NCBI GenBank assembly: GCA_017621815.1
Contig: JAGASK010000007.1
Span: forward strand, 1-40,891
Length of the DNA stretch: 40,891 nucleotides
Direction of reading: 5' to 3'
Source of the DNA: Lachnospiraceae bacterium
Lineage (GTDB): Bacteria; Bacillota; Clostridia; Lachnospirales; Lachnospiraceae
Numbering within the stretch: position 1 is the first letter of the stretch; each line of letters starts with the position of its first letter. Below, piece by piece: positions 13,244 to 23,017 of this stretch. The notes beneath the pieces are model-generated. The model did not search any database. It saw only the letters and a program-made list of their open reading frames with translations, and was not told the origin of the DNA. The position numbers and the translations under genes are program-made.

Positions 13244-13505
13244 AGTTTTGGAGACATGTATTAACTACAGCATTTTTCTTCATTTTAGCATTTATGACAA
13301 CAATGATTTTAGAAAATATTTTTACTGATTTAATACAGGAACGATTGCTTTAAAAAGAGACAACCCATTAACACTAATAATATTTGCAATATCTACAATA
13401 TTATTTCCGGCTGTTACAGAAGAAACCTTTTATAGAAAAAACATGATTTCCTTCAGCAGTAAAGGGATATTGGCAGTGACAACTATAATAAGTATGAATC
13501 TGCAG
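13244..13505 (+). pseudogene. Broken CPBP-family intramembrane protease gene
   Basis: Two frames together code for pieces of a CPBP (Abi-type) membrane protease. The first (13244-13350) reads WRHVLTTAFFFILAF and ends at a TAA. The second, in another frame from 13356, reads IFAISTILFPAVTEETFYR, holding the EExxxR motif of this family, then KGILAVTTIIS. It continues until it meets the 3' end of tRNA-Tyr at 13506, so the expected last third is missing. It has a frameshift, an early stop and truncation, so no active protein is expected. This fills most of the 374-base gap between the lipoprotein operon and the tRNA. Confidence 0.7.
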
Positions 13506-13588
13506 TGGATGGGGTAGGACTCGAACCTACGATGTTTCTGATGTCAGAGATTTACAGTCTCCTGCCGTCGCCGCTAGGCTACCCATCC
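13506..13588 (-). tRNA. tRNA-Tyr (GTA)
   Basis: On the minus strand a perfect 7-base acceptor stem forms between GGATGGG (13588-13582) and CCCATCC (13513-13507), with discriminator A. The anticodon loop is ACTGTAAAT with anticodon GTA. A long variable arm and the T-arm GTAGGTTCGAGTCCTAC follow. The length of 83 bases and the long variable arm fit bacterial tRNA-Tyr. CCA is not encoded. Confidence 0.96.
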
Positions 13589-13685: not shown

Positions 13686-13922
13686 TTATGCTGTCAGGTC
13701 AATCGCAAGAATATCATCTGTGTGAACCTGAAATACAGCTGCCAGTACCACTAAATTATCTATGGTCGGCAAAGCCGTTCCATGCTGCCATTTGTAGATT
13801 GCCTGAGGCGTGGAAAAGCCGAAGATATCCTGCAAATCTTTCACTGACAATCCATTTATCTCACGCAAACGTATAATATTTTGTCCTGTTTTAACCATAT
13901 TAATGGTAGGGATATTTAACAT
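13686..13922 (-). CDS. Small XRE-family HTH protein
   Basis: This 78-residue protein consists almost only of an XRE helix-turn-helix (IIRLREINGLSVKDLQDIFG, then FSTPQAIYKWQHGTALPTID). The start at 13922 is set by GGAGG 8 bases upstream; a longer ORF start at 13946 overlaps that site. It is the same type as the 104-residue protein at 22703-23017: both have the order LSV/LTA, FG/LG, (S)xPQxxY+W, LPxxDxLxxL. It has no effector domain. Its ribosome binding site is next to a stable hairpin. Confidence 0.82.
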   Translation of the reverse strand: MLNIPTINMVKTGQNIIRLREINGLSVKDLQDIFGFSTPQAIYKWQHGTALPTIDNLVVLAAVFQVHTDDILAIDLTA

Positions 13923-14152
13923 TTTACTTTCCTCCTGTTCCGGCAAACTGCAGGTATCTGTTCAGCCGGAACAGGTACGCCATGCTTAGGGAAGGGCCAG
14001 CTCCCTTTCCCTCCGGAAGGGCTTTCGCCATGCAACCTCGATTCCGCTTTGCTTCATCTCGGTTATCGGGCTTCGCCCTATGTATCTAAGACAAAATATG
14101 TCTGCCTGTGAGCTAGCTCCCAGCATCCAATTTTGTCTTATCTACGCATGGC
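13923..14152. other. Structured intergenic region between rtcB and the XRE gene
   Basis: This 230-base stretch holds no ORF of note but several inverted repeats. CCTGTTCCGGC (13934-13944) pairs with 13965-13975; on the minus strand this stem ends in the Shine-Dalgarno of the XRE gene. TAAGACAAAAT (14087-14097) pairs with 14130-14140, just after the rtcB stop. Between them are GC-rich short stems such as GGGCTTCGCCC. It could hold an rtcB terminator plus control of the XRE gene, or a structured RNA. Confidence 0.5.
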
Positions 14153-15374: not shown

Positions 15375-15410
15375 AAAAAACCGCCTACCTTCAAATAAGA
15401 TAAGCGGTTT
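15375..15410 (-). terminator. Intrinsic terminator (attenuator) in the rtcB leader
   Basis: AAACCGC (minus strand, 15410-15404) pairs with GCGGTTT (15384-15378), with a partly paired interior and a run of six T at 15380-15375. It lies between the stop of the 43-codon leader ORF and the rtcB Shine-Dalgarno. The 5' arm and the interior can instead pair with a segment inside the leader ORF. Confidence 0.85.
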
Positions 15411-15485
15411 ACAAATTCCATGCAATTCTGTTACGATTTATAATCAGACATCCTTACAGTATCGTTTTCGCATTATCTTATTTGA
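15391..15485 (-). promoter_or_regulatory. Candidate antiterminator pairing in the rtcB leader
   Basis: The RNA segment made from 15485-15469 (inside the leader ORF) is complementary to the one made from 15406-15391, which is the 5' arm and loop of the rtcB terminator. Sixteen base pairs form, 13 contiguous, with one bulged base at 15472. Forming this pairing would prevent the terminator stem. This is read directly from the sequence; function is inferred. Confidence 0.75.
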
Positions 15486-15575
15486 GCATATGAAAACTAA
15501 GCCCTGTTCTTTACTCAGTGCTTCATAACGTTCTCTGTTAAAATAATCGTTTCTGATAACTGCGTTCATTGTCAT
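15444..15575 (-). CDS. 43-residue leader ORF upstream of rtcB
   Basis: ATG at 15575 follows GGAAAGG at 5 bases spacing. The peptide starts MTMNAVIRNDYF and ends in the basic stretch KIMRKRYCKDV. I know no family for it. It ends 91 bases before the rtcB start. The codons for Ser-Asn-Lys-Ile-Met-Arg form the antiterminator strand. A longer reading from 15692 is possible but would run through the promoter. It may act in cis as a leader peptide, or be a small protein in its own right. Confidence 0.6.
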   Translation of the reverse strand: MTMNAVIRNDYFNRERYEALSKEQGLVFICSNKIMRKRYCKDV

Positions 15576-15623
15576 AATTTCCTTTCCGGGCATTTTTATG
15601 CCGCTTTTTTCTTTCTGCAAATA

Positions 15624-15652
15624 ACTATAACACGAAAAATCATCTTTGTCAT
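15624..15652 (-). promoter_or_regulatory. Promoter of the leader ORF-rtcB unit
   Basis: On the minus strand ATGACA (15652-15647) and TATAGT (15629-15624) are separated by 17 bases, each with one mismatch to the sigma-A consensus. It lies 49 bases before the leader ORF start and after recQ. Confidence 0.65.
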
Positions 15653-22702: not shown

Positions 22703-23017
22703 TTATGCACAACATTTATTTATTCCTTCGTAATAAGAAAAAACTCTGTGCCGCAAAATGACATTATTATTCCTGTTACCCTTTGCCACAATCAAATCTT
22801 CCATATGCATCTGCAGTAACCTGCTCAATGCATACAAATGATCCACAGACGGAAGTATCTGGCCTTTAAACCACCTGTAGACGGGCTGAGGACAGGACAA
22901 TCCCAGATATTTCTGTATCATTTTTGCCGTTAAGCCCTTTGAAGCTGCTAAATTTTTTAAATGAAAGCCTGTGGCTGCCATGTCTATATTGGAATATGTT
23001 TCACTTGGTTTGGACAT
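22703..23017 (-). CDS. Small XRE-family HTH protein (second copy of the type)
   Basis: The 104-residue protein has an XRE helix-turn-helix: HLKNLAASKGLTAKMIQKYL, then GLSCPQPVYRWFKGQILPSVD. It is paralogous to the protein at 13686-13922 in order and key positions, including the unusual (S)xPQxxY+W helix. The tail of about 25 residues is basic. GGAGG lies 8 bases before the ATG. It stands alone upstream of the AAA-MATE pair, separated by 140 bases in which I see nothing notable. Confidence 0.82.
   Translation of the reverse strand: MSKPSETYSNIDMAATGFHLKNLAASKGLTAKMIQKYLGLSCPQPVYRWFKGQILPSVDHLYALSRLLQMHMEDLIVAKGNRNNNVILRHRVFSYYEGINKCCA

Follow-up and report, generated by a model that had tools for sequence, protein, structure and literature searches.

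Among the described systems closest to the one reported here, attenuators of the trp, his and leu type combine a leader ORF with an intrinsic terminator and alternative 1:2, 2:3 and 3:4 pairings; they are off without translation and are switched on by an early ribosomal stall. The described bacterial control of rtcB that we found is exerted by RtcR together with sigma-54 and reads tRNA fragments. According to the report on Salmonella rtcBA (PMC7790460), RtcR is a sigma-54 activator whose ligands are 5' tRNA fragments ending in a 2',3'-cyclic phosphate. The nearest general sensor found is toiL, which acts via a ribosome-binding site and Rho-dependent termination (PMC12121999). Our literature survey, drawn mostly from titles and the openings of abstracts and with many subscription papers outside its scope, returned no description of an rtcB leader of the kind presented below. 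The whiB7 uORF is reportedly a stress-sensing uORF akin to toiL.

The stretch of DNA analysed here (the window) comprises 40,891 nucleotides of contig JAGASK010000007.1 from a Lachnospiraceae bacterium. From recQ to rtcB, its minus strand carries a palindrome, a promoter-like site, a hairpin, a Shine-Dalgarno sequence, an ORF and a terminator (Table 1). The best reading of this arrangement, to which we assign a probability of about 0.72, is a ribosome-read attenuator that would sense a shortage of several tRNAs and induce tRNA repair and replacement. The operator-like palindrome, a third pairing partner (15559-15532), the downstream HTH gene and the tRNA-Tyr gene are additional to the elements in the initial annotation of this DNA.

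Architecture of the leader in the window and in related genomes

Table 1 Features of the rtcB leader and the genes downstream of it in the window
Feature	Position	Strand	Basis
Operator-like palindrome TTATACC-GCA-GGTATAA	15652..15668	-	sequence; overlaps the -35 box
Sigma-70-type promoter ATGACA-17-TATAGT, TG ahead of -10	15624..15652	-	promoter scan, 10/12 matches
5' UTR hairpin GGCAT-AAAA-ATGCC, directly 5' of the Shine-Dalgarno sequence	15589..15602	-	sequence
Shine-Dalgarno sequence GGAAAGG for the leader ORF	15581..15587	-	sequence
Leader ORF, 43 codons, ATG 15575 to stop 15444, MTMNAVIRNDYFNRERYEALSKEQGLVFICSNKIMRKRYCKDV	15444..15575	-	ORF reading; dN/dS
Region 1 (protector), ORF nt 17-44; partner is region 2 without ribosome	15532..15559	-	covariation
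Region 2 (antiterminator segment) TCAAATAAGATAATGCGA, within the ORF	15468..15485	-	covariation
Region 3, terminator 5' arm and loop, CCGCTTATCTTATTTG	15392..15407	-	terminator fold, pairing energy
Intrinsic terminator, regions 3 and 4 with T run	15375..15410	-	fold, -17.3 kcal/mol
rtcB, RNA ligase, 399 aa	14153..15352	-	Pfam PF01139 RtcB, E 4.8e-57
Small HTH gene (Cro/C1 type), usual partner of the leader	13686..13946	-	PF01381 HTH_3, E 1.7e-7
tRNA-Tyr(gta), spare copy, 3' of the HTH gene	13505..13588	-	tRNA search

The terminator is a 14-pair hairpin of -17.3 kcal/mol with a six-T run at its end. The initial annotation had recognised it and had set the rtcB start 23 bases behind it; the terminator is confirmed, and the gap to the rtcB ATG (15352) measures 22 bases. 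It had also argued that transcription must pass the terminator. This is very likely the case, because the promoter scan placed a site upstream of the leader (15652-15624) and gave no further promoter on that strand between this site and the rtcB start. Inspection of other leaders by eye revealed a promoter-like element at the same position and a hairpin of different letters at the matching position of the 5' UTR. At family gathering scores, Rfam gave no match for the leader in the window, T-box included; for eight relatives the matches were tRNA and one ROOL RNA only, with no leader family among them.

The rtcB product is an RtcB RNA ligase by its domain, with a predicted activity; its matches to RtcB families in NCBIfam fall under the curated cut-offs. 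Pfam searches with eight window genes returned RtcB, HTH_3, a RecQ-type helicase, MatE, AAA, a second HTH_3 and two genes without confident match, while neither RtcR nor RtcA was matched among these eight. A second tRNA-Tyr(gta) gene resides on another contig of the same genome. An alignment of the two has 92 columns, 63 of them identical, and the anticodon loop is the same in both, so that the operon copy is a diverged duplicate. A distant paralog of the operon HTH gene (profile E 1.5e-17) adjoins an AAA ATPase gene at 22703-23017 on the minus strand of the window, and a leader of the rtcB type was not seen ahead of it. A similar HTH-ATPase pair is present in G243 (L190). When the HTH profile was run against a sample of the phylum, 4 of 398 genomes responded at 1e-12, i.e., the window's own genome, one family member (L190), L191 and L192; the ORF lists of the last three loci contained neither tRNA nor a leader-type operon.

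The palindrome-promoter pattern TATACYNYARGTATAATGACA occurs in 18 of 397 genomes of the family and in at least 118 stretches of the named genome collection. Among the 80 stretches listed, 50 are titled Lachnospiraceae and most others Clostridia or their genera; a Prevotella and an Erysipelotrichaceae stand out as odd titles. With respect to a phage origin, the operator pattern gave no matches in viral_contigs. The 80 listed stretches and earlier searches together make up a main set of 107 instances, 87 of which were parsed with a Shine-Dalgarno-preceded ORF and a terminator, the latter present in all 87, and yielded 52 representatives under 80% identity. The remaining 20 were too short or could not be parsed for terminator or ORF (L007, L011, L012, L056, L058, L060, L069, L073, L083, L089, L104, L105, L107, L109, L127, L128, L135, L143, L145 and L148); by eye, L058, L073, L104, L128 and L143 look like genuine leaders outside the parsing patterns. 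Two hold-out sets were formed. The first consists of 15 leaders from the rtcB survey described below, all under 80% identical to all earlier ones, and the late one draws on the other 38 of the at least 118 stretches, of which 26 were parsed and 12 proved under 80% identical to earlier leaders.

In the relatives, the leader layout likewise resides 5' of rtcB; an exception is G008 (L003), where the leader lies directly 5' of the HTH gene and rtcB is lacking. For 29 representatives, at least 2400 bases of downstream sequence are available, and these contain the HTH gene in 28 cases, rtcB in 21 and tRNA genes in 14. The usual order is leader, [tRNAs], rtcB, small HTH regulator, [tRNAs], and in its fullest form leader, [tRNA Ser/Lys/Trp/Leu], rtcB, HTH, [tRNA Glu/His/Tyr/Ser/Arg]. 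In loci L229 and L081 the order differs in that the HTH gene comes ahead of rtcB, directly under the leader; their leaders are of the MLQ/MKL type with at least 18 different amino acids. One carrier of the leader, L099, belongs to the cultured [Clostridium] aminophilum and has rtcB as well as tRNA genes.

Starting from rtcB, close relatives of the gene were detected in 55 of the 397 family genomes (56 genes including that of the window). A script recognised operator and terminator at 26 of the 56, and hand review raised the number of leader-bearing genes to 35, leaving 21 at which a leader was not recognised. In this review, terminator-only rows were judged by eye (eight accepted, four rejected), L275 was retained for its operator only and L255 was re-assigned by hand because its match in the rtcB survey is a second RtcB. 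The parser found no ORF in three terminator-bearing loci (L224, L243, L246). The HTH gene accompanies 28 of the 35 leader-bearing and 1 of the 21 leader-less rtcB genes, and tRNA genes are within reach of 13 and 2, respectively. Two RtcB genes per locus occur in L255 (G045) and also in L095, the second being about 41% identical to that of the window. In L263 (G370), seven tRNA genes, for Gln, Cys, Phe, Lys, Lys, Gln and Asn, lie behind an rtcB gene that has no leader.

Searches with the leader itself were less productive. At E 0.05, the peptide sequence gave matches in 14 of the 397 genomes of the family, a strong one in its own genome and weak ones elsewhere; the two of these loci that were examined (L038, L044) are real leaders. 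A search with the leader DNA in 37 genomes of the genus gave six matches, four of them only at E about 4e-4. Of these four, L004, L005 and L006 were rejected by eye as a common small stem beside a recombinase-like gene, and L007 is a degenerate leader, the same as L012.

Alternative pairings and the position of the ribosome

The initial annotation had pointed out that a segment of the ORF is complementary to the 5' arm of the terminator. This proved correct: region 2 (15485-15468) pairs with region 3 (15407-15392) at -16.6 kcal/mol. None of 100 codon-order shuffles of the ORF was as good (z -5.3), and 4 of 100 synonymous shuffles were (z -2.2). In addition, region 1 and region 2 can form a duplex of -10.5 kcal/mol. 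Among the 52 representatives, 24 individually beat the codon-order shuffles and 12 the synonymous shuffles at P 0.05.

The covariation check that the initial annotation had proposed for related rtcB leaders was carried out with duplex energies, which were compared between each leader's own segments and the segments of other leaders over 20,000 permuted pairings of the 52 representatives. Both alternative pairings covary. Cognate pairing was stronger than non-cognate pairing both between region 2 and the terminator arm (z -10.3) and between region 2 and region 1, here taken as ORF nt 1-36 (z -10.0). The three controls were null: region 2 paired against ORF nt 37-75 gave z +1.7, and ORF nt 1-75 gave z 0.2 against the spacer and z -0.6 against the terminator arm. 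At stricter redundancy cuts, ORF and terminator arm gave z values of -7.4, -7.2 and -5.4 for 43, 37 and 26 leaders. The hold-outs behaved alike: for the set of 15, z was -3.0 (p 0.002) for ORF and terminator arm and -6.2 for regions 1 and 2, with controls at -1.5 and 0.4, and for the set of 12 the values were -2.2 (p 0.014) and -2.7 (p 0.004), against 0.6 and 1.3 for the controls. This cognate-specific covariation bears out the geometry put forward earlier, and judged from these sequence comparisons the leader is almost certainly an attenuator with an antiterminator.

A further segment of the 5' UTR should be mentioned here. The motif AAGCGG (15601-15606, minus strand), which overlaps the 5' UTR hairpin, can pair with the terminator 5' arm and is lengthened to GATAAGCGG in some relatives, so that it may be a further strand of the switch. 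Covariation between 5' UTR and terminator arm is absent (z 0.2), though AAGCGG pairs in the fold; between 5' UTR and region 2 a weaker covariation signal was obtained (z -3.4).

Each leader, cut off behind the terminator 5' arm, was also folded with the footprint of a ribosome masked. The mean occupancy of the antiterminator was 0.15 without ribosome. It was 0.57-0.67 when the ribosome was placed at codons 5-24 and 0.49 when it was placed at codon 28, and it fell to 0.17 at codon 32 and 0.10 at codon 36. The corresponding values for the leader in the window were 0.00 without ribosome, 0.78-0.81 at codons 5-24, 0.51 at codon 28 and 0 at codons 32 and 36. In five of the 52 leaders (L010, L059, L067, L097, L123), occupancy never exceeded 0.2 at the stall positions tested within codons 5-24. 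Together with the second covarying pairing, that of the ORF start with the antiterminator segment, these folds support the earlier suggestion that translation of the leader chooses the fold, and it is highly likely that ribosome stalling is the switch. Note that once the full hairpin is made and no ribosome is present, the terminator wins the fold (0.91 versus 0.01 for the antiterminator). Antitermination must therefore be kinetic, as is the corresponding choice in the trp attenuator.

Relatives that keep the terminator and lose the complementary segment had been named in advance as evidence against this type of control. Such relatives exist, and they have lost the body of the ORF as well: L011 and L012 retain the terminator (-17.6 and -17.9 kcal/mol), and most of the ORF body is gone along with the antiterminator segment. 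In L011, L012 and L105, which is the same record as L012, a deletion has joined the beginning of the ORF to the terminator, and the remaining ORF runs through the latter. Judging from this arrangement, read-through may be constitutive in these loci, which would then represent a natural loss-of-control variant.

Leader codons, operon tRNAs and further outputs

The tRNA genes of the operons were tallied as 89 different sequences, L128 excluded. They specify Glu (26), Lys (17), Ser (13), Tyr (12), Leu (7), His (4) and Arg (4), and more rarely Trp (2), Gln (2), Cys (1) and Asp (1). Leader codons 9-22 are enriched for the residues of the operon tRNAs Glu, Lys, Ser, Tyr, Leu, His and Arg (rho 0.74; EHKLRSY 1.58-fold versus 0.64-fold). 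The match is weaker for codons 5-28 (rho 0.60) and not seen from codon 39 to the end (rho 0.06); codons 2-8 (rho -0.36) and 29-38 (rho 0.36) gave no significant result. For codons 5-28, 48 of 52 leaders have an EHKLRSY share that exceeds the protein mean; for codons 9-22, the same is true of every leader in the hold-outs (15 of 15 and 12 of 12). Since the leaders are related by descent, the enrichment does not amount to 52 independent cases. Phe and Asn are also enriched in the leaders and have no matching tRNA among the 89 counted.

Codon choice was compared between codons 2-28 and later ones. The shares of Ser AGY (61 versus 39%), Lys AAA (79 versus 40%) and Leu CTN (77 versus 56%) differ, and this choice in the early codons agrees with the isoacceptors in the operons. 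For Arg CGN, Glu GAA and Tyr TAT, early and late codons do not differ significantly. All six codon shares are higher in the leader than in the rtcB and HTH genes, a comparison to which base composition may contribute in some cases. The share of Gln CAG also differs between early and late codons, though tRNA-Gln is rare in the operons.

The leaders lack a run of codons for any single control amino acid; the enrichment is spread over several residues in a mixed composition. Codons 1-34 contain 16.25 different amino acids versus 15.03 in natural proteins, and codons 5-28 contain 13.40 versus 13.01 (P 0.04), rising to 13.81 (P 0.006) in 26 strict representatives. A simple panel of all 20 amino acids was considered and is not general, as whole peptides lack Trp in 31 and Pro in 21 of the 52 leaders. 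All 20 amino acids do occur ahead of the antiterminator in L111, and in L128 they are found within the first 34 codons (P 0.003 versus protein windows). A weighted codon panel replaces the hypothesis of an all-20 panel.

The leader is also found upstream of other genes. Eight of the 29 leader loci with enough sequence lack rtcB; Hen1-Pnkp genes were recognised in one of them and a repair gene in none of the rest. In L130 (minus strand, an uncultured Clostridia metagenome-assembled genome), palindrome, leader and HTH gene precede genes for Hen1, Pnkp and an RNA ligase. In the Erysipelotrichaceae stretch L128 (1264-5846), the leader is followed by an HTH gene, a tRNA array (19 by ARAGORN) and an RNA ligase gene. 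The pairing between ORF and terminator in L128 is, taken alone, not significant (P 0.10). L128 also has a ROOL RNA and for this reason may be a prophage whose set of tRNA genes is headed by a leader of this kind.

Proposed mechanism, rival explanations and comparison with known systems

The elements, their covariation, the content of the operons and the spare tRNA are supported by the sequences, and from them we infer the following course of events. RNA polymerase would start just 3' of 15624 and transcribe the leader. Without a ribosome, region 1 would sequester region 2, the terminator (3:4) would form and the operon would be off. During smooth translation, region 2 would lie under the ribosome at the time the terminator is transcribed, and the operon would again be off. 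A ribosome stalled within codons 5-28 or so would cover region 1 and leave region 2 free to pair with region 3, and read-through in vivo would extend to rtcB, the HTH regulator and tRNA-Tyr, presumably on a single transcript. Stalling could be caused by a shortage of tRNA, for example after attack by an anticodon nuclease, and because the ORF samples many amino acids, shortage of any of several tRNAs would suffice. The output would be a tRNA ligase and replacement tRNAs, and the HTH protein probably acts at the promoter palindrome. Lys, Tyr/His and Arg tRNAs are targets of anticodon nucleases. Stalling by damaged tRNAs fits the content of the operons (rtcB, spare tRNAs and, in one locus, Hen1-Pnkp) as well as the match between leader codons and tRNAs.

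In principle, the ORF could encode a functional small protein, with the terminator only trimming read-through from recQ and the complementarity being incidental. The ORF is indeed conserved as such (dN/dS 0.54 for leader codons 2-29 in 12 pairs of relatives) and is preceded by a promoter and a Shine-Dalgarno sequence. However, the leader peptides are very divergent between relatives and that of the window has no match in Pfam or NCBIfam, of 49 representatives with sufficient sequence on that side only two, those of the window and of L003, have a recQ-like gene upstream, and the preference for cognate pairs at two sites, with controls that are null, argues against coincidence. This explanation is extremely improbable. 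Control mainly at the promoter is very doubtful too. In this case the HTH protein would act on the palindrome and the leader would be a brake of fixed ratio, which would agree with the co-occurrence of HTH gene and leader noted above and with L089, where palindrome and HTH gene are present and a leader was neither parsed nor visible; a fixed brake, however, would need neither two alternative covarying pairings nor a translated ORF in step with them.

Another explanation retains the attenuator and replaces its signal by general stalling, be it through antibiotics, cleavage of rRNA or amino-acid starvation, rather than shortage of particular tRNAs, and RtcB may then repair rRNA or tRNA. In the folds, any stall within codons 5-28 is sufficient, and precedents can be cited: the toiL uORF answers several classes of antibiotics via stalls at different places (PMC12121999), and RtcB2-PrfH is reported to be linked to protection from colicin E3 (PMC9223846). 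The presence of tRNA genes in many of the operons speaks against such an unspecific signal, as does the finding that the residues in the stall window follow the operon tRNAs while those of the last codons do not; general stalling appears unlikely. We prefer a ribosome-read attenuator whose natural signal is probably shortage of several tRNAs. A wider view, for which we see even odds, is that of a self-contained tRNA-integrity alarm: the leader would be a codon panel matching the tRNA genes of its own operons, cleavage of any of these tRNAs by a toxin or a phage-triggered nuclease would stall the ribosome there and call up the ligase and substitute tRNAs, and the same sensor would have been passed between unrelated outputs (RtcB, Hen1-Pnkp, and the L128 tRNA array with RNA ligase).

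If this is true, the ribosome itself senses missing tRNAs via a multi-codon leader and induces their repair and replacement. Lachnospiraceae, major bacteria of the gut, would possess a response to tRNA damage and would have anticodon nucleases as a pressure acting on them. The leader would also be a ready reporter of tRNA loss, and it can flag unknown RNA-repair genes situated under it.

Hen1-Pnkp cassettes likewise repair cleaved RNA, with different enzymes, and the L130 cassette is found under the same leader and HTH gene; to our knowledge, no such leader is known for these cassettes. RtcR with sigma-54 induces rtcB upon tRNA damage in Salmonella (PMC7790460), and the same is proposed for the leader; the window differs in that RtcR and RtcA are missing from the eight genes searched and in that the ribosome would be the sensor. 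With toiL (PMC12121999), the leader has in common a short ORF responding to stalls at several positions, whereas an intrinsic terminator and control over tRNA repair set it apart. The trp, his and leu attenuators are similar in construction: a Shine-Dalgarno-preceded ORF, a terminator before the gene, a covarying antiterminator and a covarying protector are all found in the rtcB leader, and the predicted logic, off without translation and on upon an early stall, is the same. Because the run of control codons is absent, the leader is a variant of the trp type and not a plain member of it: its stall window draws on many amino acids, with a bias towards those served by the operon tRNAs, and its output would be the repair and replacement of tRNAs instead of amino-acid synthesis.
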